64,000 bases of DNA from Hirudinaria manillensis (Eukaryota; Annelida; Clitellata; Hirudinida; Hirudinidae): positions 4,604,501-4,668,500 of the forward strand of contig CM067530.1 of NCBI GenBank assembly GCA_034509925.1. The letters run 5' to 3'. The notes beneath the pieces were generated by a model, which saw nothing but the letters and a program-made list of their open reading frames with translations, was not told where the DNA came from and searched no databases. Made by a program: the position numbers and the translations under genes. Of this stretch, positions 14,078-34,556 are shown piece after piece; the first letter of the stretch is position 1, and every line of letters begins with the position of its first letter.

Positions 14078-14267
14078 GAAAAAAAATTATGTACAAAGGC
14101 ACAGTTGCATATTTATTTATTGTATATAATATTATTAAAGTTATTATTTTAATCGTAATAATTTGTTATTATTACCATTATTATTATTTTTTTTCAAAAT
14201 TTTATTCAGCCCGGATTACGTCCGTAAAACCAACACGCAAATCGGAGAACCTCATCACTGTCTTTGG

Positions 14268-14301
14268 AGTCCTCAGACAGGCCCGGGAAAACCCATGGAC
14301 T
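14268..14301 (-). ncRNA. 3' UTR hairpin of R2-like copy A
   Basis: Inverted repeat AGTCC..GGACT enclosing an inner GGG-AAAA-CCC stem, upstream of the AAT-rich tail. Equivalent hairpins occur in copies C, D, E and J with different but still paired stems. Inferred to be part of the 3' UTR structure that R2-type reverse transcriptases bind. Confidence 0.5.
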
Positions 14302-16981
14302 GTATTAACAGTAGCCTATAATGTTATAAATTAGACAAAGTACAGTCAAATAAATGTTCTTCTCGGCCTTCTTCTTTTCCTTGTTTTCCAAGCGTTTGCT
14401 CTGAATGTTCTCCATATTGTATGGGTTTCTGTCAGAGTCTTTATTGATGTCCACGTCAGGAATCGCTTAGACACGCCCAGCTTCTTCCACGAGGTCCAAG
14501 TTTCCATGGCGATTGCTCCTCTCCAGTTGATAATGTAGGCTGTGGCAATCGCCTCCATTTTGCCATTGCTCTGCTTTGGGCTGTTTGCCTTCATCCAGCG
14601 ATGAATGTCCGTGGTGTTGTATTTGTTTGCTTGCTTTGGTGGACTCTGTCTAGGTCCACGTTATCGGACACCACGGCCACGTCACAAATTATGTAACGTT
14701 CATCGCTCCATGCACAAAGATTGGGGATAAGGTCCCGCGGACGGTTGGAATATGAGGCTCTCTTGTTGTCGAGTACTCCATCTGTGTCAGTGCCGTCTCA
14801 AGCATCTTCGCTATGCAGTCGTGCCTTGCATGGCGGGGCCCGTCGGTACTTGGACACTTTTGGACAACATTTATCACAACATCACTTTTTCTGGAAGCCC
14901 GCAATCTGTTGAAAAGTGTTGCCGAGCGGACTTTGACACAGATTATGTATTGGGTGGATGACATTCTGTTGATGCCATCCACCAGCCATTCACTTGGGGC
15001 TATTGCTTCCGGAAATCGCATCAGCCTGTATCCGTCGACCGTTTTATAAAGTTCCCTCGCGGTTGATAGTCCACGAGGAACGTTCGGCTAGTCTTTTTCC
15101 TTTGGCCTCGCAAATCTTTTGACTTCGCTGGCGATCATTGCGTTTTCGCGCAATGCATCCATCAGGAAGTTGTCGTTGCTTTCTCTGGCCTGTTGTAGAA
15201 CTTTTGTCATTCTATGGATTCTAATTTCCGGAATCCATCCTCCCGTTTTGATCGGGGCATGAAAGAATGCATTTGGGGTATCTCTTGGCAGCCGGAGCCA
15301 TTTTCGAACAGACCTCCTTATTGCGACATCAGCAGAATTCAAAGACTTGAGGCTGATCGCTTCGAAGGTGAGGAAGTGAACTAGGGAGAAGATGAGTCCT
15401 TAGGACATACACTCTCTGGCATGGCACGAGCGGAGCCCGCGAAATTGAGTGAAGGCCTTTTTGAATTTTGTCTGCAAGCGAAGCAAATTGCATTCGAGAT
15501 CCGATTCGAACTCCTAAATACTTATAGGTGTCAACTATGGAGAGTGCCCTGTGTTATATCCGTGGTAATGCTTAATTAAGAGATAAGTTGGTGTATTAAG
15601 TGTGTCCCTTTTATTTCCAAAATAAGTATCACAAGCTCTAGTAATATTCATAAAAAAGACTATGAATATTTTATTACTACTTAATACTAAATATTTTATA
15701 AACAATATAATTCGGCCCATAACACCCTGATATCCTTATTTGATTTGATTTTATTGTTTTCTTGGTATCAGCAATAAAACACAAATAACAATATTAGGAC
15801 CGCGATTATATGATACCAAAGGATGCCCGAAGGGAACAATGTTCCCGCTAGATGAGCAACCTATAACCTTATCTTGCAGTATCAGGTACTCTGGGTTGAC
15901 GATCCATTGTCTTTTACGAGTGATGACCTCAGTTCTCATCGAGGCACACTTGGATGCGTTCATGATGAGTCGAACTTTGGCCATCGACACGCCATTTATC
16001 ACAACATCACTTTCATTCCAACGTCTGTGCTGGACAGTAAAAGAAGGTCGTCTGCAAAAGCAATGTAGTTGCATTTTCTGAGGATTTACCGCCTCCCGTA
16101 ACCCCAATTGATCTGTCAATGTCACTGACAACCACGTCAATGACAGCGTTGAATAACATCGGGGACATGGGGTCGTCTTGCCTTACTCCCCTGCCGACCT
16201 GTATGGATCTGCTGAGCTCCTTTCCCATCCTGATGCGGACCTGAGAATTACTGTACATTTCTGACAAATATCTTGTTAACAGGGGTGGTGCGCCGAATCG
16301 TGAGGCTGCCCTGATGATCGATTCGTGGGAAACGGAATCGAACGCCTTAGACACGTCTACAAATGTCATGTTGAGCTTCTTTCTTTCTTGTCTACTTTGG
16401 GCGACAAGCCAGATGTTGTCGGCCAAACCGTTGCCTGATTGGAACGCCATCTCGTTGATAGTGGCCAATATACGGACATGCGTTTGTTGATCACGATGGA
16501 AGAGGCGACTCATGAGCGGCCTCACAGTGATTGGTCCGAATTCACTTGGATCGGCTGTTCCTCTCACCTTTGGAATAAAGCTGACGACGCCAACTTTGAA
16601 GAGAGATGGTGGCAGGCCCGTCAATAACCAGAGGGACAGCAAAGTCGATTGGTTTGATGTTTTCCAAGTGTTTCCTTTTCACTCCATCCAGACCGGGAGC
16701 ACCGTCCTTAAGAACTCGCAGAGCCATTTTTACTTCAGTGCAGCTGACGGGAGCCTCCAAATCATGACAAATACCGCAAACTGAAAACACCGATCTATCG
16801 TCTTTGATTGACTTTTGGGAAAATATTGGTTCCAAAAACTGGAGCAATTGTTCGTGTGGTATGGGTTTAACTTCCTCGTTATATTCTTCATTCAAAACTG
16901 AACGAGCTCCTGAAGATCTATTCTTCCTGAATAACCCTTGGACCTTTGCTCGTTTCATCTTTCTGTCTTCCCTTCTTATCT

Positions 16982-16987
16982 CCTAGG
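16982..16987. repeat. Left target-site duplication of element B (CCTAGG)
   Basis: CCTAGG here and again at 20753-20758 flanks the HERO-like element. Removing one copy and the element rejoins the reading frame of R2-like copy A, apart from a stop, supporting a 6-bp duplication. The site is followed by a run of 15 G (two of them part of CCTAGG). Confidence 0.65.
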
Positions 16988-17086
16988 GGGGGGGGGGGGG
17001 AGAATGACGAGTCCATCAATGTTACAACGGTTACCGACACGGCTAGTCAACGGACTTTGATTTTGGAAACTGCCTCGGACAACGGC

Positions 17087-20000
17087 ATGCCAGGATTCAA
17101 GTGTACTTGCGGGAGATCCTTTAAGGCAGAGAAAGGACTCAAGATCCATCGTAGCAAAAAGGGCTGTGGACTGAAACAGCGTGCTGTCTCGGATTTGCAG
17201 ACAGGTGAAACGTCGAATAGCACCGGGCCGGAGGATAACCACAGTCCTGAGTGCATTTCCGTTCCAGTCCCACAGTGGAGCCCTCCAAAGCAAAGGATCA
17301 AGTTCCCTTCCAGCAGGGAGAAAAAAGCCTGGCAAGAACTCGACAATTCCCTTGGACAGGAACTAAGGAAGAAGATGCGGAAGGAACCGTCGATCAAGGT
17401 TTTCACAGACTGCATCTACCAGACAGGCCTCGAGAAGTTTGGGCCAAAGTCAAACAAAACTCCGAAAGAGCCAAAACGGTCGAGAAGACGGAGGGAACTC
17501 GCAACGCTGAGGAAAGAGAAGAAGGCGCTCAAGCGACGATGGAGGGAGGCTAACACTGACGAGAGAGATGGCCTTGCGGCTCTGTGGAACGACGTCAAAA
17601 AGCGCACCAGCGATCTACGCCGAGCAGAGAAGCTGAGACTCAAGAAATACGAGAGAAGACGTGCGCGACAGAATTTCTTCAGGGATCCGTACGGTTTCGG
17701 AAAGGCACTGCTGGAGCCCCCCAAATCAGGCGTGCTACAGGTGGAGCAGTCAGAGCTGGAGGAGCACCTGTCCAAGACATATAGCGACATTCTCCGCAAC
17801 GTCCCACTGGCCACGAGAGAGGACATCCCGACAATTCCTCTACCGACCAGCTCCTTTGACCTGGCGGCACCATCCTACGAGGAGATCAAAGGTGTGATCA
17901 AGAAGGCCAGGAACAAATCGGCGCCGGGACCTAATGGAATCCCATACCTCGTCTACAAGAAGTGCCCAAGGATTCTAAAAATTTTGCACGGCCTCATCGA
18001 AGCAGCCTGGAAATCCGGAGGAGTTGATGAGGAGTGGAAACGAGCAGAAGGAGTGTACATACCCAAGGAAAAGGACTCCCAGAACCTGAGCTAGTTCAGG
18101 CCGATCTCGCTGCTCAACGTGGAAGGAAAGGTCTTCTTCACAATCATGGCATCAAGGCTCACCCAGTATGTGATGACCAACCAGTACATAGACACAACAG
18201 TGCAAAAAGGAGGAGTTCCAGGAATTCCGGGATGCATAGAGCACACCACCATGATCTGGGAATCAATCCAGCAAGCAAAAAGGAACCACTTGAACCTGTA
18301 TGTCGTTTGGCTCGACCTTGCCAATGCGTACGGATCAGTACCGCATCAGCTCCTATGGAAGACGTTAGAAGACCATCACGTACCAAGAGCCATAATCTCC
18401 ACAATCCAAGACTACTTCAAGGGGTTTTTCATGAGGTTTTCGACGGCGGTTTATACGACAAGGTGGATTCCGCTCCAGGTCGGAATTGCTATGGGCTGTG
18501 CCATCTCCCCGTGTCTTTTTGTGCTGGCAATGCAGATCTTGTTAAATGCAGCAGGGGCCCAAATCTCCAGGGTACACATCGGCCGAAGTTTCTGTACGTC
18601 CTCAATTAAGGCGTTTATGGATGATACAACCCTGGTCATGAACAGGAAACGGACAGTTCAAGAAAGTCTGGATAAACTGAACAATTTGTTGAATTGGTGC
18701 AGAATGGCCTTCAAGCCCACCAAGTCCATAAGTCTAGCCTTGACCAAAGGGAAAGTCCGCAGCGATATCTTCTTCCAAGTCGCGGGGCAAAGAATTCCAA
18801 CCGTTGAGGAAGAACCTGTTAAAAGCTTGGGCAGAGTTTTTGATCAAACCCTCAGGGACGGAAAGCAGGTGGCCGCGGTTGGGGAAATGCTAAAGGAGAA
18901 TATGGCGGTGATCGACGGTGTGTTGCTTCCCGGAAAATTCAAGGTGTGGTTGGTACAGTTCGTGATCCTCCCAAGATTGTTGTGGCCGCTGACAATCTAC
19001 GAATTCAGCCTGACCTCTGTGGAGGCACTGGAGAGGTGCATCAATCGGTTTACCAGGAAGTGGTTGGGCCTGCCTCCAGGACTTTCCTCAATTGCCCTCT
19101 ACAGCAAAAGTGCCAAACTCAGGCTGCCGTTCAGGTCCGTTGCGGAAGAGTTCAGAGTTAGCAAGATAAGAACACAGCTCATGATAAATAGCTCCATGGA
19201 CGACACAATAAGTGGAACGAGGCCGGCACTCAGATCAGGAAGAAAGTTTAATGCCCAGGAGGAGATCGAAAGGTCGTTGGAAGTGCTGGCCTTCGAAGAG
19301 ATACGCGGTCCCATCCAAAACGACCGACATGGGGTCGGATGGAGTCACTTCGCCAGGTTGTCCCAAGTTAGCGCCGCCCAAAGACATTTTGCTCATCATC
19401 CAAGAGAGAAGGAAAGAGATCGAAAATTCCAGGATCACAAAAGCAGTTCAGCAAGCCCAACAAGGGCAGTGGACAACATGGGATCAAGCTCTGCAGAGAT
19501 CACTCTCATGGAACGACATATGGAGAATGCCGCCGCTCAAATTGGCGTTTGTGATCAGATCCCTCTACGATCAGCTCCCTTCTCGAGACAACCTAAGAAA
19601 ATGGGGTCTGGTGGAAGAGTCAGGATGCAAACTGTGCGGAGAGACCCAGACACTTCGGCACGTCCTATCAGGTTGTAAGTACGCCCTGGCAAAAGGCCGG
19701 TACACCTGGCGCCACAACCAGGTTCTGAAGGTGGTTGTGGAGGCAATCAAGTCCGCCAGTGCAAAGGCAAACGCCCGTGAATCGGTTCCGCAAAAGAGAA
19801 CGTATTTTTTGCGAGAGGGCAGGGCGCAGTACGCCAAAAATAGGTGTCAAACGCCGAGGAAAAACATCCTTGAAAGTGCCAACGACTGGCGGATCGCCGC
19901 CGATATCGAGGGAATGAAAGAATACCCCCAGGCCGAGCGTGAAAGTGGGCGAAGACCAGACGCAGTTATGTCATCGGTCAGGACAGATACCATCGTAATG

Positions 20001-20279
20001 GTAGAGCTGACAGTCCCTTGGGAGGACAGAATGGAGCAGAGCAACGTGCTCAAAGAAGACAAATACTCTGAGCTCTCGATGGACCTGACCGACCGGGGAT
20101 ATAAAGTGTACCTCTTCGCCATAGAGGTGGGTGCACGTGGTTTGGTGGGCAGATCCAGCTACAACTTCCTCAGGGAGATTGGACTGCCCAGCAAGGACAG
20201 GAGTGCCACAATGGAAAAACTGTCGGAGGCGGCCGAAACTGCTTCACAGTGGCTGTGGCAAAAAAGAGACAGCCAATAG
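17087..20279 (+). pseudogene. HERO-like ORF: zinc finger, reverse transcriptase, restriction-like endonuclease
   Basis: The frame is open from the 5' junction. The first plausible ATG is 17087, directly before a Cys/His finger (CTCGRSFKAEKGLKIHR, Cys further on). A basic, Lys/Arg-rich linker follows, then the RT domain: APGPNGIPYLVYKK, VWLDLANAYGSVPH (motif A), FMDD at 18614-18625 (motif C). The C-terminus has CKLCGETQTLRHVLSGC (zinc knuckle) and RPDAVMSSVRTDTIVMVELTVPWED (endonuclease). Two lesions: an in-frame TAG at 18092-18094 just before FRPISLLNVEGK, and a frameshift around 19320-19400 that moves the endonuclease half to another frame, ending at TAG 20277-20279. Otherwise the coding sequence is well kept, suggesting a fairly recent insertion. 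Confidence 0.8.
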
Positions 20280-20355
20280 CGTTGCTCCATAAGGCAACCA
20301 ATAGCGAGGCTGAGAAGTACGACCAGGTAACCTCCCTCAACCAGGTCGGCGAAAG

Positions 20356-20439
20356 CCTTCTGAAAGGTCGGCGCACCGGAGCGAGAACCTTCTGAAAGGT
20401 CGGCGCACCGGAGCGAGAACCTTCTGAAAGGTCGGCGCA
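20356..20439 (+). repeat. 32-bp tandem repeat in the 3' UTR of element B
   Basis: Units starting at 20356, 20388 and 20420, each beginning CCTTCTGAAAGGTCGGCGCA; about 2.6 copies with almost no divergence. GC-rich compared with the surrounding sequence. Probably part of the 3' UTR of the HERO-like element. Confidence 0.8.
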
Positions 20440-20925
20440 GGTATCATACCTCTATAAGACCGAAGCCGGTTGTCAGTTTTCACCGGTACTCGGCGGAGAG
20501 AGGAAAGGTGATTTAGGCTGGAAGGCGAAGACTTAAAGACCCAGCAGGGACACCCGACTGATCATCGGGTGCGGCCCAGCCCCCGAGAGCGTAAGGAGAT
20601 CAGGGCCGAAACGCTTGAAGAAGGGGCCACTCCTCTGAGGATTCCCTGCTGGCGCTCCAACAAAGGAGTTTCTTGCATCCTTCTTGGATGGTCGGATCTT
20701 CGTTGTCCGAAATGGTCTGGTCTGATTTCCGCTTTACTTTGGTCAGATGCAACCTAGGAAGTAGTCTCGACCTTCAGAGGCCGATTTTCATATCTGTCAG
20801 CTCCCTTCTTTCCACTATGCACTTTTAAACTCTCCATCCACTGTATGTATTCCTTGTCTATCAAACGGCGCTTTGAGTCGATGTCAGCAACTTGATTTCT
20901 CAACAGTTCGGAAAGTTCCTCGCCT

Positions 20926-21203
20926 TATTTTTTTAATGGCTGCAACACCATTTATTTTCCCGACCAGAACAATCAATGTGATACAAATAATCACGACAAT
21001 CAAGCAAATAAAAAAAAACCCCTCGTAGATTTTTAAAGTCCCCCGCCTGACTCGGGATCTTCACGGGACTGATAAATTATATCTTAATTAACAAACTGTA
21101 TATAAACTGTACATAAACGCTTGCCCCACGTCAAACCGAAAAACAAATCAGATCAGATGTTCATATCAAACACAAAAACCGAGTGTTTTCGACGGTTCAA
21201 ATA
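20926..21203 (-). mobile_element. R2-like copy J, 3' UTR-only fragment
   Basis: A short segment between copy A and the tail of copy C. It has no coding sequence but contains the shared 3' UTR hairpin (21037-21070, AGTCCC..GGGACT) and ends toward copy A in an A-rich tail (about 20926-20940). I read it as an extremely 5'-truncated insertion of the same family, in the same orientation. Confidence 0.5.
21037..21070 (-). ncRNA. 3' UTR hairpin of R2-like copy J
   Basis: Six-pair outer stem AGTCCC..GGGACT with a GGGATC segment inside, similar to the GAGATC of copies D and E. Confidence 0.45.
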
Positions 21204-21342
21204 AAATTATTATTATTATTATTATTTTTTATTTTTTTTAATATTTTTTTTTTTTTCCTTTATTAGCCCAGCCTAAAACTCATACAAAGCAATCAATTCA
21301 TACAATTCATAATCCGATTCGATAATTTTAGGTCCGCCAATG

Positions 21343-21365
21343 GGTCTGGGAAATCCCGTCAGACC
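21343..21365 (-). ncRNA. 3' UTR hairpin of R2-like copy C
   Basis: Stem GGTCTG..CAGACC around an inner GGG-AAAT-CCC stem. Same position relative to the tail as in the other copies. Confidence 0.5.
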
Positions 21366-21425
21366 ATTCAAAAAAAAGAACTTTCAAGTCGATCTTACGA
21401 GTCATTGTACATTCACAAATGTCAT

Positions 21426-24400
21426 TCAATTCAACTTCTTTTTTCTTCTTCTCCAGGCGTTATTTTTATAAGTTCGCCAAATCTTATGGGTCTCCTGCAA
21501 CGTTTTGATGGAGGTCCACATGAGGAACCTCCTCGAGACCCCAAATCTTCTCCAAACCCTCCAAGACTCTTCTGCTATTGCTCCTCTCCAGTTCAAGACC
21601 AGGGCGGTGATGGTACCTTTCTGACTCCGTTGTTCTGGCATCGGATTATTTTCCTTCATCCATTGGTGGATTCCCGGAAGGTCATACTTTGCGACTTTTG
21701 AAGCATGTATTTTATTCAAGTCGGCAATATCCGATGCCACTGCCAGGGCACACGACATATGTGGAGCCTTTCCATGCTCACAAATCAGGAATTTTTGTTC
21801 CTTCTATCGTCGGGATTCTGGGTTCGATGCTGGTAGTAAACCCCATCTTCTCAAGTTTGCTTCCTAACATAGCCAAAATGGAGTTGTGTCTAACATGTCT
21901 GGGACCATCGGTAACATGGCACCGCTGTATAATATGGCCCAGCGACTCCTCAGTCCGGCATCCAGCAGTGCAGAGAGTGCTCAAATACATCTTGTATCTC
22001 GATTCCCGCAATCTGTTGTGTAGGACCGCGGCTCTAACCTTCACGCAGTTGATCCATTGATCTGACGTCATTCTGCTAATTCCATCGATTAGCCATTCTC
22101 TTGGACCAATGGCGTTTGAAAATGATTGCAGTCCATATCCGTCAACTGTTTTGTACAGTTGTTTGGCCGTTCTGATTCCCATTGTTTTGGCGTCTGTACA
22201 ATTCTGTGGGAGACCAAACTTCCTGACTTCTCCCATCACTGTCGTTCCGCCCCCGAGGATGTCCAGCATGAATTGGTCTCTATTCGCTTTGGCTTCTTTT
22301 AAGACCTGCGTCATGCGACGAATTCTTATATTTGGAATCCATTTCCGAAGTTGAAGGATTCCGAGACCTCCTAGTCGGACTGGGGCATACAGGAATGCAT
22401 TGGGGGCGTCCTTCGGCAATTTCAACCAATGTCGAACTGTTCGTCTAATGGTGACGTCTGCGGCATTCAAAGACTTGAGGCTTATTTTTTCGAAGCTGAG
22501 ATGGTGTACAAGGCCAGGCATGAGATGAGTTCTGAGAATGTAGAGCCGCTGATGTGGTTCCAAAGGGGCGCGCGAAATGGAGTGTAGGTCTTTTTGAATT
22601 TTTTCTGCTATTGATTCATATTTTAATCATGCCCCAATCTCAATACCAAGATATTTGTAGGTTTCAATGATATTTAGTGCAGTGATTTTCGTGTGTTGCA
22701 CTTCAAGGTATGGTTCCGGATTAACAATCCACGATCTTTTTGCGATGTTTATCTCGGTGCGGAGAGATGCGCACTTGATTGGATTCATCGCTAATCCCAC
22801 CTTTAACATTCCTCCTTCAAGTTGTTGAAGCATCATCTGCATTCCAACGTCTGTTGTAGACATCAGCAAGAGGTCGTCAGCAAAGGCAACGTAGTTGCAT
22901 TTTATTTTGGACTCAGCGTCTCCTGTTACGCCGATTGACTTGTCCACTTCGTTAAGGACCATGTCAATAACGGCATTGAAAAGCATAGGAGACATTGGAT
23001 CTCCTTGCTTGACGCCTCTGCCCACTTGAATGCGATTACTAATTCCGTCTGTACTCTTGATTTGAACCCAACTATTTCTGTACAGTTCTGTCAAGTAATT
23101 GATAAACAATGGAGGCGCCCCGAGTCGAGAAGCAGCTCTCATGATTGATTGATGAGAAACTGAATCAAACGCTTTGGATACGTCTACGAAAGTCAAATTT
23201 AATTTTTTCAGTTCCTGCTTCTTTTTCTTGATGAGTGACTTCACCAACCATATATTATCGGCCAGACCATCTCCTTGACGAAACGCTTTTTGGCGCGGAG
23301 ACAACGGCAAGAAGGAGATCATCCGTCTGTTGAGGATCCTATGAAACAGTCGACCAATGATTGGGCTCACTGTGATGGGTCTGAACTCGCTTGGGTTGGT
23401 GGCTCCACTTATTTTTGGAATGCATGTGACGATCCCAATTTTGAATGAAGACGGGGACAAACCAGTTAACAGCCACATGTGACATGTGAACTGCAAAGTC
23501 AATGTTCTTGATCCCTTCTATGTGCTCTTTCTTTAATTTGTCGTGTCCTGGCGCAGCATCTCGGAGACCTCTAATAGCAGAATTCACCTCATCGCTGGTG
23601 ACTGGCAATTCTAAATCATACAGAGTTCCGCCAACAACTGTCACTGGTCTATCGTCTTCAACTGACTTTTTTGAGAAGACCTGCTCCCAATAATCGATCA
23701 ATTCTTTTCCTGGAGTTGCCTTTGACTTTTCTTTGAATTCCTCTGCCAACACAGCCCGTGCCCCTACTGCTGGATTTTTCCTGAACAAATCTTGAATTAC
23801 TTTCCTTTCAATGGTTCTCAGTTCTTTTTTGCTGAGCCTAGTCTTTGCTTTCACGAACATTCGACCTTTGGCATTGTTTGGTTTTGTACTTTTCTTTTGT
23901 GTTGGTCGTTTCGAAGTCTTTTGGATGAATCGTTTACCGGTTATTGAAGGGAGAAGATTTTCTGTCCACTTGCTATATTCTTTGTCAATTAGCTCCTGCT
24001 GTGTGGTCTTGTCTGTTGAATTGCGGAGCAGCAAGGACAGTTCTTCGCTAGAAAGATGGATGCATTCATAGCGATTCAGAATGAATTGTTGTAATTTGAT
24101 CTCACTGTTTACCATGTCTTCCGCTGGATCGAAGGAACAAGGAGCTCTTATTTCTTTTGTTTTTGAAGTTATTTCTTGCATCACGATGTCATTAAGAAAT
24201 TGGCGATAACTGGGTTTATTTCTGATTTTCCGAATTGATTTAATTTAAAATTGAGGCACGATTCTGTTTATGGCCAGATTGATTCTTTTCTTTACTAACG
24301 AGTTCAAACTCAACTCTGCTCTGGCAATGCTTTCCAATCGCTCATCATCATCGTTTACGGAAGGAATGGCTGGACAATCTCGTTCGTTGTTTTCCTCACT

Positions 24401-24844
24401 TGATTCCGTAACCTCTCTGTTGTTCGTATCACCAGACTGAGCCCTCAAAATCTTTCGGTAAGACGATTGGCGTCTATGGCTCCTGATGGCTGCTAAGGAT
24501 CGATGTTGAAATCTTTTTTGGGCTTCAATATTTACATTCTTGTAACCTTCCTGCTTTAATTCAACTTCAATTTTTGCAAGCATATGAGATTCTTCTTCCG
24601 ACCAGCGACACTTGGAGTAGCTTTTTCCGGCCCTGTCTCTGTGATATTCAACTGGATGGGCATGGTTTTGACGAATTTTTAGCTCTCGCTCTGTTTTGAA
24701 TTCGGAGCCGCAGAATTTGCACTTTCTTGGCGGACATTCTTGTTGTGCGCTCTCAATGTTCGAACAATGGAGACTGTCGTCGTACACATTTCTCGAACGT
24801 AACGTTCTAACTAACAATTTTTCTCTGGACTGAATGTCTTCCAT
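21426..24844 (-). pseudogene. R2-like ORF: zinc finger, Myb-like, RT, restriction-like endonuclease
   Basis: Read from ATG 24844 downward. First a C2H2-type finger (CKFCGSEFKTERELK, about 24725), then a Myb-like helix set (WSEEESHMLAKIEVEL), both used by R2 proteins to bind target DNA. The RT core follows: FVDVSKAFDSVSHQS, RGVKQGDPMSPMLFNAVID, VAFADDLLLMS near 22880. The C-terminus has the CCHC knuckle (CTAGCRTEESLGHIIQRC) and endonuclease segment (IPDL..ASDIADLNKIHASKVAKYD), ending NAWRRRKKKLN. Lesions: TAA at 24245-24247, a frameshift near 23480 that looks like a 7-bp tandem duplication (TCACATG twice), a stop at 22627-22629, a TGA at 21778-21780 where copy D has a Cys codon, and a frameshift just after. 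Inactive but recently decayed. Confidence 0.8.
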
Positions 24845-25106
24845 ATTTCAACCAAAACCAACAAATTGAACAAACTAACTTGAAAGCCTTTGCAAACTGT
24901 GAAGCCCTATCAACTAAATGACTAGACAATCAACGAAACTGTTGTTTCTAATTCACAGCTTTATTTTCCCCTTTTTTCCAGAAATTATGATCACCAACCA
25001 CGAAAAGATTGGTAGGGGACACAAATTGACCAGATTTCGAAGCAAAAAATCGTTACGTTAAGCAAAAGCAGTAATTTGTAACGAGCAAACGAAATTTCGT
25101 CCGTAC

Positions 25107-25130
25107 CGGTCAACCGCTCGAGCCGCTCTT
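25107..25130 (-). repeat. Shared 5' junction sequence, copy C
   Basis: Contains CGCTCGAGCCGCTCTT (25115-25130), also found at 33017-33032 and 34470-34485. This copy and the one at 33009-33032 share 24 bases. It includes the palindrome GCTCGAGC and the inverted repeat CGGT..ACCG. AT-rich TTA repeats follow on the plus strand each time. Confidence 0.75.
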
Positions 25131-25301
25131 ATTATTATTATTTTATTTTTTATTATTATTTTATTTATTTTTTATTTATTTTTTTAAATTTATTTTTTAT
25201 TTATTTTTTTAAATTTATTTTTAATTTATTTTATTTTTTTTTCTCGGCCTCACACCCAAAACACAAACAACAATATTCCGACGGCCTCTCCAAAGTTTAG
25301 T

Positions 25302-25332
25302 GTCCGCACTAGGGCCCGAGATCACCCTGGAC
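25302..25332 (-). ncRNA. 3' UTR hairpin of R2-like copy D
   Basis: Outer stem GTCC..GGAC with inner stem AGGG..CCCT around a CCCGAGATCA loop. The loop sequence is identical in copy E although the stems differ. Confidence 0.55.
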
Positions 25333-26845
25333 ATTCGGTCAGAAGGTGAAATCACGATCGAACGCGCCGAGTAACGTCAACTGCCAATGTCACTGAGAAT
25401 TCGCAGTCCGAAAAAGTGCGATTGCCCTCGGAAGTGGGCACCTGTGAGCCCTCCAGATTTTGTAACTGTGACTGAGGACCGAGAGCACAACGTACATTAA
25501 ACTCGTCTTCGAAGCGCCGCATTCTCTCCAGAATCTGTATGATTCTGCACTCATGACTCCTCTCCAGTTGCAAACGCAGGCGCCAACCTTCGGAAGCATT
25601 CTTTGGACACCGGCTGGGGCATTCCTCAACATCCAATCATGAACATCTTTAATGTCGTACTTTGAAACTTTGCTCTCATGACACTTGTCTAAATCATAAT
25701 CATCGGATGTCACGGCAACATCAGTCACTATGTAGAGGTCACCTCTCCAGGCACACAAATCAGGAATTTTGAGTCCTTTTTCTGTGGGAATACGGGGCTC
25801 CATTACTGTAGTATAGCCCCTTTTTCGTAGTTCTCTTTCTAATTCCCTAATGACAGCGTTGTCTTTCATGCCTTGGGCCATCCGTTCTCGGGCATCTCTG
25901 GATCATGTGGCCCAGCGATTCGAAAGTATTGCAGCCCTCCCCGCATCTCCTTGAAGCCAGAGGATTCCATCTCGATGCTCGGAGTCTGCAGTGAAGTGCG
26001 GCCGCTCGGACTTTTATGCATTTGATGTATTGGCCAGATGGAACTCTTGGAACCGCTGCTGAAATCCAATCACTCATTCCAATTCCTCAGGTGAATTATC
26101 TTAATCCATAACCGTCTACAGTTTTGTATAGGCTCTTTGAGGCCGCCACTTTCCAATCCAGTTTTGATTGTTTTGCCTCCGACGTTCCAAATTTCCGGAA
26201 TTCTCTCATGATCAGGGTGTTGTTCCTAAGAACATCCAACAGGAATTCATCTTTACGACCACCTGTCTCAGAGAAGATCTCTGTCAATCTATTTATTCTG
26301 AGCCGGGGAACCCATTGTTTAAGTGGAAGTATTCCCAGACCACCGGATTTGACGGGAGCATGGTAAAATGGCTTTGGGACATCCTTTGGAAGATGAAGCC
26401 AATGTCTTGTTGCTTTCCTAATCGCGGTATCTGAGGAACTCAGAGAACCGAGGTTGACCTCGCCAAAGGTAAGTTTGTGAACGAGGCTTGGTATCAGATG
26501 GACTTTTAGAATATATAGGCGTTGGCACGGCTTAATTGGTGCTTTCCAGATGGAGTTGAGAGACTTGAATTTCATAACCGATCGACACTGGCTGCTTTCG
26601 AACTCCAATCTGAATCCCCAGGTATTTGTAAGTCTGTGAGACGTCTATTGCTTTAATATCCTGTGATTGAAATTTAATGTAGGGTGTAGGATTGACTATC
26701 CAGCGTTTTTCCTTGCAATGAGTTTCCGTACGGAGTGTGGCGCACTTGTTTGGATTGATTTTAAGTCTTGCGCTGCCCATTGCAGTTTCAAGTTGCTCCA
26801 TCAACTTCTTCATTCCGATGTCAGTTGTTGACATCATTACCAGAT

Positions 26846-27020
26846 TGTTATAACTTCAGAATATCGAGATCAACACGGTTTATTAGGATCAACGCAATAC
26901 GACACAACTCGACACAACACGACACAGTACGATACGAACACGAGCGGAATTAAAACGGAAAACAAGCGTGCCTCATCGCACGAGGTGCACAAAACCAAAG
27001 ATACGTATAATCCCACAACA
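26846..27020 (-). repeat. 3' LTR of the intact Gypsy element
   Basis: 175 bp, TG..CA ends, flanked on the outside by the target duplication CAGAT (26841-26845). Inside it is bordered by the polypurine tract. By eye it is identical along its length to the other LTR at 31327-31501. Confidence 0.9.
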
Positions 27021-27034
27021 CCTCCCCCCCCTAA
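27021..27034 (-). promoter_or_regulatory. Polypurine tract next to the 3' LTR
   Basis: On the minus strand a run of G and A (AGGGGGGGGAGG type) lies directly before the 3' LTR. It is where plus-strand DNA synthesis would begin. The gag-pol stop codon TAG overlaps its start. Confidence 0.75.
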
Positions 27035-30000
27035 ACGATTAGGTATTTCTTCCTCTGGGGGTCCATCTCCAGCCTTCTTGGAGGTCGGCGGTTCCTTGCG
27101 GATCTTTTCTTTGGTGTCCGTGGTTGCACTGGTGGAATGACAGGCTCTACTTCGCACTCTGGAATTTCCTGTAGTTCCGGCGTGTGCGTGTTTTCTGCGG
27201 TTGTCTGGGACGTCCCACTTAGTGGCAGGAATGGCAAGTCAAATGCCTCACACATCACCTTCAGTGAATCATCCTGCGCACGCTTCCTGAGCTGGTTCGC
27301 GTGGCGATGGAGCATTTTGCCGCTTGCCTCCACTAGGTAGACTTGACGTCCCTGTCTGCGCCTGATCCACCCCTGTATCCACTTCGGGTGACTTGGATCC
27401 TTGTAGTCTCTTACGAAGACTGCGTCTCCCTCGGCAAACTCTCTCATTCGCCTGTGGATAGGTTTCCTTTCTTCCATCTCCTGATCCGCTCTTGGGAGAT
27501 GTTTTACTGGGCTTTTGAGTTGGAGGTCACTCAGGGGAGTTCTCAAAAGTCTCCCTAGGAGTTTCTCTGCCGGCGTCTTCAAATCCGTCAAAGACGTGCA
27601 TGGCGTTGTCCGGTAAGTCAGCAGAAATTTCTGGAGCGCATCCTCCATCACCTCCTCCCCCTGCAGCTTTTGTAGTGTACGCTTGAATGTGTCCACAAAA
27701 CGCTCAGCTTGTCCATTGCAGTGAGGTTGGTAGGGCGGTGACTTGACGTGTTGCATTCCATTCCTCTGACAGAACTCTTGGAACTCCTTGGACGTGAACT
27801 GAGTCCCATTGTCCGAAACTATCACTTTTGGGTATCCCTGCTGCGCAAAAATCCTACCCAGTTCTCTGATTGTGGCAATGGATGTTGAAGTCCTCATCTT
27901 AATAACTTCAGGCCACTTGGAGAAGGCGTCCACCACGATTAAGAACATCACTCCTTCAATCGGGCCGGCAAAATCAATGTGGACCCTCTCCCAGGCACAA
28001 TCCGGTTTCGGCCATGGCGTCAGTTCGTTCCTGACAGGCATCTTTGCAGCCAACTGGCATGAACTGCAAAGTCTTACTCTGTCTTCGATGTCCCTGTCGA
28101 TTCCTTGCCAGTAAACGTGCAGTCGAGCTAGCATTTTCATTCTACTTGTCCCAGGATGTCCCTCGTGCAGCATCTTCAAAATTCGGCCTTGCAGGGCTGA
28201 TGGGATCACGGCTCGTGTTCCCATGAAGAGTGCACCTTCATGGACTGACAAGTCTTTAGAACGGCTGTGGAAGGCGTGCAGAGTCGATCCAGCCCGGAAA
28301 CTAGGCCATCTACCCGTTCTTACACTTTCAACAACCAACTTTAGCTCGGAATCTTCTTCAGTCATCCTCTGAATATCCTCCTTTGTGACTGGCAAGTTTC
28401 GAATGACATCACTCTGAACTGCCTTGACATCCCTTTCGATCTTCGCAATGACGATGTCTTCATCTTCTGGCAGCTTCTTCGTAGCGATGAGACGGGACAG
28501 CGCATCGGCTTGACCAAAGTGAGTGGATCGCCTATACTCGATGACAAAATCATACGCAAGCAAGACGAGTTCCCATCGTTGGAGCCGATTTGCTGAATGA
28601 GCTGATATACCAACCTTGGATCCGAAGATCGACAACAGTGGCTTATGATCAGTCAGCAACAGAAAGCTTCTGCCGTATATGTAGCGATGAAATTTCCTTA
28701 CCGCAAATACTAAGGCCAGAGCTTCTTTCTCGATCTGTCCGTAGTTCTTCTCTGCCTTGGTGAGAGATCTACTGGCGTGTGCGATCGCCTTCTCCGTGCC
28801 GTTCGGGAAGCGATGAGAGATGACAGCTCCCACTCCATAGTCACACGCGTCCGCAGCAACGACGATGTCCAGTGCAGGGTCGAAGTGCGTCAACAACAGA
28901 TCAGACTGCAACACTACCTTGAGCTTGTCCAGCACTCTTTGGTGTTCAGCAGTCCACAAGAATTTGTCTTCTCTTTCCAGATCGTCCAGGAGGCCTCTCA
29001 TTGAACGCATATCTGGCACAAAAGACGAGTAGTAACTTATCATACCTAAGAACGATTTCAGCTGCTTTTGATCCTTAGGCGCTGGCATTCCGACAATTGC
29101 TTGTATTTTCTCGGGATCTGGTCGACGGCCATCTTTTGAAACCACGTGTCCCAAGAAGTTGATTTCAGGTTTTGCGAAGGAGCACTTCTCCATTCTGACG
29201 CGGAAACCATAATCTGCAATTCTTTCAAACAAAGCCTGGACGTTATTGTTGTGCTCTAGAATTGTTGATCCTGTCACGATGACATCATCTAGATATGCCG
29301 CACAGCCATTAAGTCCTGTGATCATTCGATCCATGGCTTCTTGGAAAATGCCAGGTGCGCATTTGACTCCGAAGGGTAACCGCTGGTACTGGAACAGGCC
29401 CTTGTGTGTATTTATCGTCACCAGTTCCTTCGAGTCATCTTCGACTTCCATCTGCAAGTATGCGTCTGCGAAGTCGATCTGGGTAAACCATGCGCCTTGG
29501 TTTAGACGAGCGAAGATTTCGTCGGGTGTTGGCAGAGGGTGACGGTGCATCTCGAGTGCTTCGTTTAATCCTGTCTTGAAATCAGCACAGATACGGACTG
29601 ATCCGTTCTTCTTGGCCACTACAACAATCGGGGCAGCCCAATTGCTATAATCCACTTTCTTCAAGACTCCTTGTTGCACTAGACGCTCCAGCTCTGTGTT
29701 GACTGCTTCCTCCCGGGCGAACGGAATCTTCCTCTGTCGGCAAAAGGTCGGACGAACTCCCTGCCTCACAATCAACTGTGCTCGAGTCTTGCATTTGCCC
29801 AACTCCTCTTCGAAAACATCTGGGAACCTTTCAGCCAAACTCTTGGCAAGTTGTCTCCCTTCTTCTTCTGGCTTCTGCTCAATTTTGCAGCAGATGGCGT
29901 TGAAGGCTTTCTGTAGAGGTGGCAGCTGATTCATCCACTCGATGCCCAACAATTGATCAACGTTTTCAGCCACATAGCAGCGACCGTGGCCTGAAAATCC

Positions 30001-31311
30001 TCCGCAGGTGAACTTAACATCAAATTGACCCAGGACCTCAATCGGCGTTCCATTTGCAGCTCCCAGTGAAGTCGTCGTTCCTTCCAGAGATGGCGAACCT
30101 ATCTGCTCCCATGCGTCTCTGCTTATGACTGTGACGTCTGCACCAGAGTCCAGCTGCATTCTGACCTTGGTTTCTCCGAAGCTAACTTCGGCGTACCTTC
30201 GGTTGGTCCTGACATCTGTGTTAATTTTTCTGACTCGCCCCTTGAATTTCGATTCCTTTCTGTGGCAGTCCTTCTGTGGGCAATCCTTCTTGAAATGTGA
30301 CAAGGATCCACAGATGAAGCAGGCACCCTTGGACGATTCTCGAGGATTTTCTTTGCTAGGGAAAATGTGTCGAGTCTTCTTCCTCTGGTGGCCTCTTTGA
30401 ACTGCATTCACAGCCTGTGTACCGTCTACCATGTCGGCGTCTTTCCTCAGACTGACAATGTTATCACACTCGTTTACCATGTCTTGTAGAGTGCATCCTT
30501 CCTGCTTCTCCAGCTTGGACAGCATTCTAGTTCTGATGTCGGCATACTTTGATCCAGTTAACGCAGTTATGTAGATCAGGCATTTGAAATTTTCCACTGT
30601 CAGAGTGTCGATCCGAGCCAGCGTCACCATTCTATTTATCATCGTACCCAGTTTGCGGAACGTCATGGTGCCGATGCTCAATCGCATGGCGTCGAATCTC
30701 CTCTTGAAAACTGAAACTTTGTCACCGAAAATGTCTTCCAAAGTTTCCTTCGTTTGCTCGTAGGACAAATCACTTGGAGACAGTGGCATGATGTGATCTG
30801 TAAAACTGTGGTATGCCTCTTCATTCAGCTTCGACACGAGTGCGCCTGTCTTGTCTGCATCCGACAACTGCATTGCGTGATTTCCTAGAACTGCTTCAAA
30901 CCGTCCCATCCACTTGGAAAAGGGTGTCCCAGACTCAGGATCATAACTAAACTGCGTTATCTGTCTCATGAGCTCCGGGAGTAGATCTGATTTTCTTTCT
31001 GTCTCTGTGGCTTCTTTACACTGAGGTTTCAGGGACTGGAGCAATTGCAACAATGCCTCTTCCCTTCGACGGTTCTCCTCGTCTCGGCGAAGATCATTCT
31101 CACGGCGGCGTGTTTCTTCTTCGCGACGGCGAGTTTCCTCCTCCTCACGACGGCGAATTTCTTCATCGCGACGGCGAATTTCTTCCTCCTCACGACGACG
31201 AATTTCTTCCTCGCGACGGCGAGTCTCTTCTTCGCGACGTTCATCGTCGCGTCGTCGATTTTCTTCCATGAACATCGTCATCATGGTCAAAAATTTATCC
31301 TCAGTAGCCAT
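27031..31311 (-). CDS. Gypsy gag-pol polyprotein
   Basis: One uninterrupted frame of 1426 codons from ATG 31311, only 15 nt inside the 5' LTR, to TAG 27031. Domains in order: an N-terminal Arg/Glu coiled-coil repeat (about residues 20-95); a gag core; a CCHC zinc knuckle (CFICGSLSHFKKDC, near 30290-30330); an aspartic protease (LDSGADVTVIS, near 30145); reverse transcriptase with FADAYLQMEV and YLDDVIV (near 29290); RNase H (ADACDYGVGAVISH, DHKPLL); and an integrase with an HHCC finger, the first Asp in IDFAG (27970), VSDNGTQF (27810) and the Glu in GQAERF. All catalytic residues that I can place are present. Gag and pol are fused in one frame without a frameshift or stop between them. Confidence 0.92.
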   Translation of the reverse strand: MATEDKFLTMMTMFMEENRRRDDERREEETRRREEEIRRREEEEIRRRDEEIRRREEEETRRREEETRRRENDLRRDEENRRREEALLQLLQSLKPQCKEATETERKSDLLPELMRQITQFSYDPESGTPFSKWMGRFEAVLGNHAMQLSDADKTGALVSKLNEEAYHSFTDHIMPLSPSDLSYEQTKETLEDIFGDKVSVFKRRFDAMRLSIGTMTFRKLGTMINRMVTLARIDTLTVENFKCLIYITALTGSKYADIRTRMLSKLEKQEGCTLQDMVNECDNIVSLRKDADMVDGTQAVNAVQRGHQRKKTRHIFPSKENPRESSKGACFICGSLSHFKKDCPQKDCHRKESKFKGRVRKINTDVRTNRRYAEVSFGETKVRMQLDSGADVTVISRDAWEQIGSPSLEGTTTSLGAANGTPIEVLGQFDVKFTCGGFSGHGRCYVAENVDQLLGIEWMNQLPPLQKAFNAICCKIEQKPEEEGRQLAKSLAERFPDVFEEELGKCKTRAQLIVRQGVRPTFCRQRKIPFAREEAVNTELERLVQQGVLKKVDYSNWAAPIVVVAKKNGSVRICADFKTGLNEALEMHRHPLPTPDEIFARLNQGAWFTQIDFADAYLQMEVEDDSKELVTINTHKGLFQYQRLPFGVKCAPGIFQEAMDRMITGLNGCAAYLDDVIVTGSTILEHNNNVQALFERIADYGFRVRMEKCSFAKPEINFLGHVVSKDGRRPDPEKIQAIVGMPAPKDQKQLKSFLGMISYYSSFVPDMRSMRGLLDDLEREDKFLWTAEHQRVLDKLKVVLQSDLLLTHFDPALDIVVAADACDYGVGAVISHRFPNGTEKAIAHASRSLTKAEKNYGQIEKEALALVFAVRKFHRYIYGRSFLLLTDHKPLLSIFGSKVGISAHSANRLQRWELVLLAYDFVIEYRRSTHFGQADALSRLIATKKLPEDEDIVIAKIERDVKAVQSDVIRNLPVTKEDIQRMTEEDSELKLVVESVRTGRWPSFRAGSTLHAFHSRSKDLSVHEGALFMGTRAVIPSALQGRILKMLHEGHPGTSRMKMLARLHVYWQGIDRDIEDRVRLCSSCQLAAKMPVRNELTPWPKPDCAWERVHIDFAGPIEGVMFLIVVDAFSKWPEVIKMRTSTSIATIRELGRIFAQQGYPKVIVSDNGTQFTSKEFQEFCQRNGMQHVKSPPYQPHCNGQAERFVDTFKRTLQKLQGEEVMEDALQKFLLTYRTTPCTSLTDLKTPAEKLLGRLLRTPLSDLQLKSPVKHLPRADQEMEERKPIHRRMREFAEGDAVFVRDYKDPSHPKWIQGWIRRRQGRQVYLVEASGKMLHRHANQLRKRAQDDSLKVMCEAFDLPFLPLSGTSQTTAENTHTPELQEIPECEVEPVIPPVQPRTPKKRSARNRRPPRRLEMDPQRKKYLIV
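31100..31260 (-). repeat. Arg/Glu-coding tandem repeat in gag
   Basis: Degenerate repeat of units such as CGACGGCGAATTTCTTC (plus strand) that translates on the minus strand as RRREEE-type repeats. It encodes the charged coiled coil at the gag N-terminus. A shorter version is present in the copy at 61.0 kb. Confidence 0.7.
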
Positions 31312-31326
31312 CCTCGTCGCCAAATA

Positions 31327-31501
31327 TGTTATAACTTCAGAATATCGAGATCAACACGGTTTATTAGGATCAACGCAATACGACACAACTCGACACAACA
31401 CGACACAGTACGATACGAACACGAGCGGAATTAAAACGGAAAACAAGCGTGCCTCATCGCACGAGGTGCACAAAACCAAAGATACGTATAATCCCACAAC
31501 A
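31327..31501 (-). repeat. 5' LTR of the intact Gypsy element
   Basis: 175 bp, TG..CA ends, followed outside by CAGAT (31502-31506). On the minus strand it contains AATAAA (in CCTAATAAACCG), a likely poly-A signal. The sequence just inside, TATTTGGCGACGAGG, is the likely primer-binding region and is also present next to the LTR at 60.9 kb. Confidence 0.9.
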
Positions 31502-33008
31502 CAGATCATCAGCGAATGCAATATAATTGCATCTGATCGCTGAATTTCTGCCAGCCGTGACACCAATTGATTGGTCCAGTTCGCTGGTTATCATATCCAT
31601 GACCGCGTTGAATAAGTGGGGGGACATCGGGTCTCCTTGACGAACTCCTCTTTTCACCTGTACCCTTCTACTAAGTACTCCCTCGGCTTTAAAGTGAACC
31701 TCACTTTCTTTTACAGCTCCGCCAGGTAGTTTAAGAGGAGAGGTGGAGTGCCGAGTCTGGCAGCAGCCCTGAGGATAGATTTATGGGATACTGAGTCGAA
31801 AGTGGTGACGTCGACAAATGTCAGGTTAAGTTTTTGGATCCGCTCTTTCTTTTTTTGAATTATTGATTTGATGAGAAAGAGATTTTGTGCAATGCCATCC
31901 CCCGGACAGAAAGCTTTTTGTCTCGATGACAGGGGCCAATTCCCCAACATTCTACTCCCAAGGATGCGATGGAAGAGACGCGCCATAATCGGACCAATAG
32001 TGATAGGTCGATAATCGCTCGGAGTCGAGGCCTCTTTAATCTTCGGAATGAATGTGACGATTCCCGATTTGAATGGTGCGGGAGGTAATCCTGTTAGCAA
32101 CCAGAGAGACATGTGAACAGCGAGATCGTCATAACTGAATTTGGCAAGATGCCTTTTTCGAATGCCATCCTGTCCAGGGCTGCTGTCCTTTAGTCCCCGG
32201 AATGCAATCTCTACATCCCATTTAGTGATCGGATCTTGCATTTCTGTTGCGATGTCTCTGATCGTCACCAGAGGCCTGTCATTCTCCACCGATGTCTCCC
32301 CAAAGATCTCGCTCCAATAGTCCGCCAACCCCGCAGGGAAAGCGCCTGCCTGGACTTCATATTCTCCTTTCAAAACCGAGTGCGCTGCAGATGTTGGACT
32401 TTTTCGGAAAAGTTTTTGCAGACTAGCATAGCACTTCTGTCGCTCTAACTTTTTTTGTTCCTTCTTTGACACCCTGATTTTTGTTTTCCGGAAAGTCCTG
32501 CATTGGTTTTCTGATTTGCTTTGGACATGATCGTTGTTTCTATGCGCCCTCTCAGCACGATCGGCAGGTTGTTTGGGCTCACTGCTATTGATCTTCTGTG
32601 GAATTTGAATGGAGATCCACTTTTCATATTCCTTAGTAATCAGTGAGATTCTCTCTGTTCTCGGGAGCTTCTCGTTTATGAGGTTGGAGAACTCTTCACC
32701 ATCTAGTTGGATCATTTGGTATCTTTCAATCACAAACTGTTTCAACTTTAACTGATTGTCTATAGCGGTTGAGCTACTGACTATTTCCTCGTGCTCCTCA
32801 TTCGTAGGCGGCATTCCTAAAATCTGGTTTTCAGTCTGTCTCAAGGCCACAGAATCCTGAAAGGCATTGCTTAGAAGGCTCTTGTAACCAGGCTTGTTTC
32901 TGATTCTCTTTATGCGCCTAACACTCACATCCAGGAAGTGTCTGGAAAGGGCGATATTGATTCTTTTCCTTTCTTGGTCATTAAGTCCAGCTTCAGCTCT
33001 CGACATAT

Positions 33009-33032
33009 CGGTCAACCGCTCGAGCCGCTCTT
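33009..33032 (-). repeat. Shared 5' junction sequence, copy D
   Basis: Same 24 bases as at 25107-25130; it lies between the tail of copy E and the coding start of copy D. Confidence 0.75.
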
Positions 33033-33124
33033 GTTATTATTATTTTTTTTTTTTTTATTTTCTCGGCCAAAAAAAATCATCCAACAGCAAACGCGATCAT
33101 CAAACACCTCAACTAACATCCACT

Positions 33125-33156
33125 GTCCCCCTCCGGGCCCGAGATCACCCCGGGAC
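33125..33156 (-). ncRNA. 3' UTR hairpin of R2-like copy E
   Basis: Outer stem GTCCC..GGGAC, inner CCGGG..CCCGG type stem, with the same CCCGAGATCA segment as copy D. The outer stem is one pair longer than in D, and both sides changed. Confidence 0.55.
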
Positions 33157-34469
33157 ATATTGCAACCGCATTCCCCAGCGCCAACAACACCGCGCTATAA
33201 ACAAGCGACATCAACCATAATCAATCACTATAGTCCAATTCGCCGGCGCCAACGTTTATGAGTTCTGCGCTTATGGAATTTCCACATAAGGTAGGTGTCC
33301 AGCAAAACCGATGTTGCCAGGTACATCATGCCGTTTCTGGACAGACCGATGCCCCGCCATGACGAGTAAGATCTGGAGGATATCACTCCTCTGAGGTTGC
33401 ATACAAAGGCGGTTACTATGATCTTCGGAGAGAGAGCACCCCCAGGGTTATTGTTAGACATCCAGATGTGGATGTCTTTGGAGTTATATTTTCCTGTCTT
33501 GGATGAGTGGACCTCGTCCAGTGAGGCAGTATCAGAGACAATGGTGACGTCGCATACGATTGAATCGTCCTTACTCCATGCAACTAGATCAGGGACTCTG
33601 ATGCCTTCCTCAACTCGTATCCTCGGCTCGATTTTGGTGAAGTACCCTTTCTCGACCAACTTCGTTTCCAGCCGATGGACGAGGTTGTTGTGCCTCTCTC
33701 GTCTTGATACATCCATTCCTGGACAAACCTGGAAAATGTGATCCAGGCTCTCGTTGACTCTGCAACCGGCGTCACACTTGGTGTTTACCTCTGGATGATA
33801 TCTGGAAACCCGGAGATTGCATGGGAGGACGCCTGCTCTGACCTTTAAGCACTTTAAGTAGTCACTCGGGAACAATCTTGAACGCCCATCCGCGATCCAT
33901 TCACTGATACCGACACCCTGGAAAAAGGACTGGAGTCCAAATCCGTCTACCGAGCTGTAAAGGCTCTCGAGAGTCTCTTCCTTAAGTCGTTTTTTTGGCT
34001 GACGACTCCGAATTTAATTGCCCGAACTTCCTGTGTTCTCCAAGGACGATGCTGTTGTCCTTTAGAGTGTCGAGCAAGAATTCGTCTTCATTGCTTTTCG
34101 AGCGAGCCATCATAGATCTCATTCTGCTGGTTCTGATGAGTGGAACCCACTTTCTGAGCCGCAGTAGTCCCAATCCACCAAACTTCAGCCCCGCATGGAA
34201 GAAGGCGGTCGGCGTGTCTTTTGGGAGGCGCAGCCATTGCCTGACGGCGGATCTTACTTTCGTGTCTGCAGCCTTTAGAGATTTCAAAGAGATTCTATTG
34301 AAGGTAAGATAGTGCACGAGGCTTGGAATAAGGTTCGATCTTAGGGTGTAGAGTTTTTGATTTGGCTTTAAAGGAGCTCTAGATATTGCATGCAAGGATT
34401 TATGCATTCTGTCGCCTAGTGACGCGTATTTCATTTTTGGGCCAATGTCAATTCCAAGATATCGGATAT

Positions 34470-34483
34470 CGCTCGAGCCGCTC

Positions 34484-34485
<2 letters not shown>
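34470..34485 (-). repeat. Shared 5' junction sequence, copy E
   Basis: CGCTCGAGCCGCTCTT, the 16-nt core of the sequence at 25107 and 33009, here joined to a different internal position of the element. Confidence 0.75.
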
Positions 34486-34530
<45 letters not shown>

Positions 34531-34556
34531 GTATTATTATATTATTATTGTATTAT
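34486..34556. repeat. TTA trinucleotide microsatellite
   Basis: GTTATTATTATT.. repeated almost without interruption, then slightly degenerate. It borders the 5' junction of R2-like copy E and may be the target of the array or the tail of a lost upstream copy. Confidence 0.8.

Follow-up and report, generated by a model that had tools for sequence, protein, structure and literature searches.

We report here a head-to-tail array of R2-like retrotransposons in a 64,000-nucleotide stretch of the Hirudinaria manillensis genome (GenBank assembly GCA_034509925.1, contig CM067530.1, termed contig C5 below, positions 4604501-4668500; hereafter the window), in which younger copies came to rest in a (TAA)n tract at the head of an older one. 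The array is genuine and consists of four insertions, all on the minus strand, between ~14.1 and 34.56 kb of the window. Its copies, named A, C, D and E, are, as judged from their sequences, members of four related families of R2-like retrotransposons that lack long terminal repeats (non-LTR) and belong to the restriction-like endonuclease (RLE) type. The stacking of such TAA-targeted elements at the heads of older copies is, with high confidence on our part, the best explanation for this arrangement. All genome-wide statements below refer to the 148 Mb, in 23 contigs, that were searched.

Architecture of the array

Followed along the minus strand, i.e., from right to left, the array runs from a (TAA)21 tract through E, D and C to another repeat and, finally, A. 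The tract (34487-34549, minus strand; delimited by Tandem Repeats Finder and by reading the junction) lies upstream of E and is the target tract heading the array. Copy E (33060-34485) is truncated at its 5' end, with its own sequence beginning at ~34465, and closes with a tail that is first A-rich and then AAT (33036-33059, from the junction read). Copy D is likewise 5'-truncated, and its 5' part (31507-33035; own sequence from 33008, after 3 nt of filler) is separated from its 3' part (25245-26845), which encodes the end of the reverse transcriptase (RT) and the endonuclease and includes the 3' untranslated region (UTR), by a 4.66-kb LTR retrotransposon. Relatives L015 and L023 are uninterrupted at this point—D is one element. 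The A/AAT-rich tail of D (25132-25244) abuts the head of C (21265-25131), a full-length copy with broken frames, whose native head at 25131 carries the private tag AAGAG before CGGCTCGAGCGG and whose own tail (21207-21264) is again A/AAT-rich. Both at E/D and at D/C, the next head directly follows an A-rich to AAT-rich tail.

Between the tail of C and copy A lies another dispersed repeat (20925-21206, not assigned to a strand), which matches genomic places other than those matched by the neighbouring A piece, and C and A consequently do not form a clean tail-to-head junction. This repeat is 91-94% identical to other places in the genome. Copy A comprises a 5' piece (20679-20923, minus strand, defined by genome matches), a main piece (14190-16984, minus strand, holding a further insert of ~330 bp at ~15551-15885) and an A/AAT tail (14140-14189, minus strand). 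The two pieces are one element, split by a plus-strand RLE-type non-LTR element (16985-20678) that is flanked by a target-site duplication (TSD) of ~3 nt (CCT); relative L047 is uninterrupted at the insert site and represents the empty site.

An earlier sequence-only reading of the window had described five copies—A, J, C, D and E—on one strand, each with a tail abutting the next copy. The head-to-tail order on the minus strand stands, the count falls to four, with A and D each split, and the abutment of tail and head applies to E/D and D/C, not to C/A, where the repeat intervenes. The former copy J probably corresponds to the 5' piece of A; the letters came without coordinates, and their mapping is our inference. 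That reading had also recognised no ribosomal RNA (rRNA), in agreement with our scan of the window against 4227 Rfam families, which gave 0 matches at gathering score. The window contains 0 N bases.

Copies D and E inserted at the head of copy C

A 16-mer, AAGAGCGGCTCGAGCG, is common to the heads of C, D and E and has three exact matches in the 148 Mb, all of them in the array. With one mismatch allowed, it occurs in two more places, namely L013, another C copy behind a TAA tract, and L012, which has no TAA tract in front. Copies of C elsewhere agree in the head from CGGCTCGAGCGGTTGACCG onward, or from slightly later, and what precedes it varies; among the C heads read, AAGAG belongs to the C copy of the window alone, and the ten others have different letters at this position. 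The first 24 nt of D (33035-33012) and the first 16 nt of E (34485-34470) are TSD copies of the head of C. Relatives of D begin at nt 28 or later (nt 1-27 are covered by none of the 40 other matches listed), and relatives of E at query nt 26 or later (in a query starting at 34490, nt 1-25 are left uncovered by all 39 other matches listed). Since the private head of C stands at D and E and is left uncovered by the relatives of both, D and E carry duplicated target sequence. Copy C was in place first, and D and E inserted later in the TAA tract at its head. The suggestion of the sequence-only reading that every newcomer goes in at the end of the previous copy came close and had the direction reversed: the TSDs of D and E took 24 nt and 16 nt, respectively, from the head of C, and the newcomers therefore inserted at the older copy's head, not at its end. 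One of them perhaps inserted at the other's copy of the head of C; the TSD lengths and the TAAC/TAAT variant before the tag fit both orders of D and E.

We also considered the shared 24-nt string as part of the open reading frame (ORF) of D itself, given that it reads ERLTDMSRAE in frame, against ERLESIARAE in C. This similarity is put down to chance, with none of the 40 other D matches covering the 24 nt. In a D copy at locus L022 (contig C5, 4006 kb), the first 18 nt of the D head are doubled (TGTGTCTCGAGCGAGTGG twice), which might be a template jump or the trace of a nested insertion.

Beyond the array, TSD matches extending beyond pure TAA were found by script in nine of the 23 C and D copies with a readable 3' flank. 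Five of these TSDs are clear, with lengths of 58 nt (copy C1), 29 nt (copy C3), 78 nt (D26), 19 nt (D40) and 23 nt (D34), and letters other than TAA, as well as interruptions of the TAA repeat, are seen in clear TSDs (L026/L066, L048/L049 and L044/L045).

A TAA microsatellite as the insertion target

When 30 D loci were read by eye, all 26 heads found were preceded by (TAA)n; the remaining four loci, including the D copy of the window, show no head. A script applied to C and D copies located (TAA)4 or longer within 100 nt upstream in 25 of 25 cases, and (TAA)3 or longer within 120 nt of the 3' end in 20 of the 23 with a readable 3' flank. The tracts before the heads read TAA in the sense direction of the element. 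By comparison, the probability that the end of a sense (TAA)5 tract lies within 100 nt upstream of a random point is ~0.008, based on ~24,000 such tract ends in the genome (12,084 and 11,863 per strand)—a count in which interrupted tracts enter more than once and for which the reversed control is itself a TAA pattern. The TAA-type target put forward in the sequence-only reading thus receives strong support from the flanks of the heads.

Arrays recur across the genome

The 160 copies listed include 16 pairs no more than 6 kb apart, 15 on the same strand and one on opposite strands. A wider survey relied on 3'-end (tail) patterns, which gave 160 hits against 1 in the reversed control, and 113 against 7; a few of these hits are due to chance. 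Tail-pair and head counts cover contigs C1-C7, with 157 tails and 41 heads, the latter derived from 62 hits by dropping those beyond C7, one non-C/D head on contig C4 and the TSD copy of the window. Of 23 tail pairs within 6 kb, 22 were on the same strand and one on opposite strands (sign test, p ~6e-6), and when the tails were placed at random in 2000 trials, such pairs averaged 1.65 and never exceeded 9. In addition, a family tail on the same strand lies 72-260 nt upstream of eight of the 41 heads, while opposite-strand tails within 700 nt numbered 0.

Junctions read outside the window comprise, from tail to head, A-C, A-A, C-A, C-D, A-D, D-D and E-C, and arrays with other partners occur on contigs C1, C3, C4, C5, C6 and C7. 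One of these, on contig C3 (9.231-9.247 Mb), is again a stack of four (A, C, A and D), in which a short repeat flanked by TAA separates D from A. Locus L075 in this array (C3:9242000-9242594) contains an element of ~190 bp between TAA tracts, ending in ATGATAATAAT, which is possibly a short non-autonomous passenger using the same TAA target. A different pattern was seen at C11:1362887-1448894, where seven C-family tails lie on one strand, ~12-19 kb apart; the region looks like a segmental duplication of a block holding a C copy. As far as it can be tested, the outcome that the sequence-only reading had named as refuting it did not arise—the copies are dispersed, but those junctions that were read are alike and arrays with different partners recur.

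Four related families and their protein

Genome DNA searches scored the best candidates of each family (40 of 75 for D, 40 of 326 for C, 40 of 171 for A and 40 of 116 for E), and family copy counts are accordingly lower bounds. Among the matches listed, relatives were 94-98% identical for D (40 other matches), 97-99% for E (39), 95-99% for C (43) and 88-93% for A (40); 14 other C copies, at 96-97%, reach the 3' end from a start at nt 1-11. In a seven-sequence tree that took in C, D and E from the array, their RTs, which share 57-60% identity with one another, form one clade with a support of 100/100; the placement of this clade relative to R2Bm and R2Tg is not settled in that tree, which came with a long-branch warning. 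The three RTs are 31-34% identical to those of R2Bm, R2Tg and 9nl2, and that of R2Bm is 35.5% identical to R2Tg and 30.8% to 9nl2.

An uninterrupted ORF of 1159 amino acids is present in 16 of the 30 D loci. The D-family protein (from L019) matched PDB entry 8gh6, which we take to be the R2Bm protein, with a phmmer E-value of 1.5e-117, and the alignment covered the CCHH/Myb-like region as well as the stretch from the pre-RT region to the endonuclease. Within a single ORF, the D protein is co-linear with R2Bm in the order CCHH finger, Myb-like region, RT, Cys/His cluster and endonuclease; the motif names are read off the R2Bm alignment. In the E family, a CCHH motif before a Myb-like region was seen by eye in the part from the N-terminus to the RT. 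Among Pfam models, only RT scored above cut-off in the D protein, and an NCBIfam search yielded RT matches only, far below cut-off. A viral-contig scan for relatives gave 10 pattern matches, none of them confirmed, and no R4 or Dong sequence was among the matches of the PDB searches or of this one scan.

The heads of the A, C, D and E families share TCGAGCG, followed ~80-100 nt further on by GTGTCCCCTAC. When the 5' UTRs (taken from the window at 25131 downward and from L019, L080 and L084) were folded separately, each was predicted to form a long helix joining the TCGAGCG and GTGTCCCCTAC regions, with paired letters that differ between families. Fold z-scores against shuffled sequences were -2.0 (C), -0.2 (D), -4.7 (A) and -2.7 (E), such that D alone would not stand out. 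A search for a 5' ribozyme gave no Rfam ribozyme at E<=10 in L023 or in window positions 24700-25140, where the hits were to other RNAs and far below their gathering scores.

Proposed mechanism and alternative explanations

The mechanism that we propose starts from site-specific insertion into a (TAA)n microsatellite in the sense direction. The RLE would nick the bottom strand within the tract or at its 3' end, and an RNA with an A-rich or (UAA)n end would be reverse transcribed from this nick. A top-strand cut ~16-80 nt further downstream would then produce a TSD made of TAA repeats plus whatever sequence follows them, after which any of the four families could place a further copy in the tract just before the older head. 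The order of the nicks and the biochemistry would follow by analogy from what is known of R2 and R1. As a TAA tract is stranded, copies in one tract share their orientation; and with TAA kept in front and a TAA tail added, insertion would renew the target so that later copies can land. The two alternatives of the sequence-only reading, a TAA-type target and insertion next to the last copy, fit this one mechanism, in which the tail supplies a fresh TAA tract.

Several observations weigh against this proposal. A strict test, covering contig C1 to C6:6.94 Mb, found (TAA)4 within 30 nt of 24 of 36 head-pattern hits, leaving 12 that fail it: one is the TSD copy of the window, four that were read as sequence (L022, L026, L036 and L051) have a tract ~35-65 nt away, and the remaining seven include one hit that is neither a C nor a D head. 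The 3' flanks of copies C2, C3 and C10 are devoid of (TAA)3. No TSD beyond pure TAA was found in 14 of the 23 copies with a readable 3' flank, and four of the nine TSD matches (C6, C9, D25 and D32) differ from pure TAA only at the edge. The excess of heads behind tails over an even choice among TAA tracts (8 of 41 seen, 0.9 expected; p ~3e-6) ignores tract length. Within the array, the C/A junction is broken by another repeat, the order of A versus C derives from divergence only, and the order of the junctions is that of the assembled sequence. As regards the protein, Pfam at E<=1 detected no finger or Myb model in D, where both features rest on the R2Bm alignment (i-E 2.5e-7) and on motifs seen by eye.

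Tandem duplication or unequal crossing-over of one insertion, followed by divergence, would also predict a head-to-tail order on one strand, and the C11 region (1.36-1.45 Mb) resembles segmental duplication. The copies of the array, however, belong to different families, with RTs 57-60% identical among C, D and E; in the matches listed, each of the three has its best relatives elsewhere, at 97-99% identity; and D and E, behind identical TSD letters, differ in where they are truncated. We consider this origin highly improbable. An equally slight probability attaches to an assembly artefact that joined copies from separate places in repeats: TAA tracts and high-copy elements are difficult to assemble, yet the window is free of N, three heads have a private tag in common and arrays with other partners were found on six contigs. 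Scarcely more credible is untargeted insertion, whereby TAA tails would be added at loosely chosen AT-rich sites and the TAA in front of a head would stem from earlier tails. A-rich to (TAA)n stretches are indeed found at the ends of the tails; nevertheless, some heads, such as those at L018, L029, L041 and L042, have no family tail in the displayed flank and still show TAA in front and other DNA beyond, and the clear TSDs hold TAA interruptions and non-TAA letters.

Other elements and genes in the window

The element that splits D (26846-31501, minus strand) is, to go by its domain order, a Gypsy-type LTR retrotransposon. Its two 175-bp LTRs (26846-27020 and 31327-31501) are identical, and it is flanked by the TSD CAGAT at 26841-26845 and 31502-31506. 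It contains one stop-to-stop frame of 1439 codons with a DUF7083 domain, and diverged relatives are present further right in the window, at 47.7-49.4 kb and 61.0-62.6 kb.

The plus-strand element within A (16985-20678) belongs to another RLE clade, with an RT 18-24% identical to the other RTs compared. It encodes a zf-RVT domain and, by eye, an N-terminal C2H2-like motif, has a run of 15 G at its 5' end and carries a 32-bp tandem repeat at 20349-20439; related pieces lie on the minus strand at 40-44 kb of the window. To the right of the array, KY-like immunoglobulin domains occur in two plus-strand frames (38553-39656 and 54209-55483), which are probably members of a host gene family.

Comparison with known systems

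The closest match in terms of target is Dong, an R4-clade element known from Bombyx mori and other animals, whose insertions lie in (TAA)n with TAA at the 5' junction (PMC3774820; PMC7998251) and which shares with the families described here both this target and the RLE. That the present elements are true members of the Dong/R4 clade, in which nothing but the arrays would be unusual, is compatible with the proposed mechanism and competes with our account over classification only; we see it as nearly an even call, leaning slightly against. The (TAA)n insertion fits R4/Dong, for which (TAA)n (Dong) or ribosomal DNA (rDNA; R4) is the characteristic site. PMC7998251, however, describes R4/Dong as having an N-terminal Myb-like domain without zinc-finger motifs, whereas D and E both carry a CCHH motif ahead of a Myb-like region and in D the two align with R2Bm (Pfam at E<=1 finding neither domain in D). 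PMC3774820 places a self-cleaving ribozyme at the 5' end of Dong; the Rfam searches here gave no ribozyme, and the 5' structure predicted for the four families is a different, shared one.

With R2 (R2Bm and R2Tg), the likeness lies in the protein: the order of CCHH finger, Myb-like region, RT, Cys/His cluster and endonuclease in one ORF is found in D through the R2Bm alignment and, for the N-terminal part to the RT, in E by eye. The target differs, as these elements sit between TAA flanks with no rRNA in the window rather than at the R2 site of 28S rDNA, and their TSDs are long and variable. For R2 elements that have departed from the 28S target, the passages seen of PMC5035012 give R8, R9 and two non-specific R2NS families, without mention of a microsatellite-targeting R2. 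We file the elements as TAA-specific, R2-like RLE retrotransposons that work like Dong, and claim membership of neither R4 nor R2; the 'R4 group' label mentioned in the sequence-only reading was not confirmed.

As for the arrays, tandem R1 insertions in Drosophila rDNA are separated by a TSD that renews the target (PMC2718515), and tandem copies separated by duplicated target are what we found at the heads of C, D and E. R1 arrays are located at the R1 site in 28S genes, whereas the microsatellites used here are dispersed and common to four families, and part of a TSD can be the head of an older element. Utopia, a site-specific RLE element in U2 snRNA genes that occasionally occurs in tandem (PMC4640811), offers a further parallel with another target and family. 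SART and TRAS of the R1 group, as well as Zepp and other telomere-repeat elements, use a short tandem repeat as target (PMC10088271), and differ from the present families in that their repeats are telomeric and not interstitial. Among the papers listed by our literature searches, no title or start of an abstract concerns head-to-tail arrays in TAA tracts, and none of those listed for a TAA microsatellite element contains that phrase.

A tentative reading, which we consider less likely than not, is that an R2-superclade lineage with finger and Myb left rDNA and took to TAA microsatellites independently of Dong, with target-rebuilding tails that let several families share and lengthen the tracts. 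If so, older copies would serve as landing pads, and stacked heads and TSDs would record the order of insertion. The array itself illustrates how a site-specific retrotransposon can live outside rDNA in a target of its own remaking, and its inherited TSD letters provide an insertion record that can be read. With an uninterrupted frame in 16 of its 30 loci, the D family is a natural test of an R2-type finger and Myb-like region reading TAA instead of 28S rDNA. The system is already known in parts, i.e., TAA targeting from Dong/R4 and TSD-separated tandem insertion from R1; distinctive here are the combination of an R2-type N-terminus with a TAA target and the arrays of mixed families.

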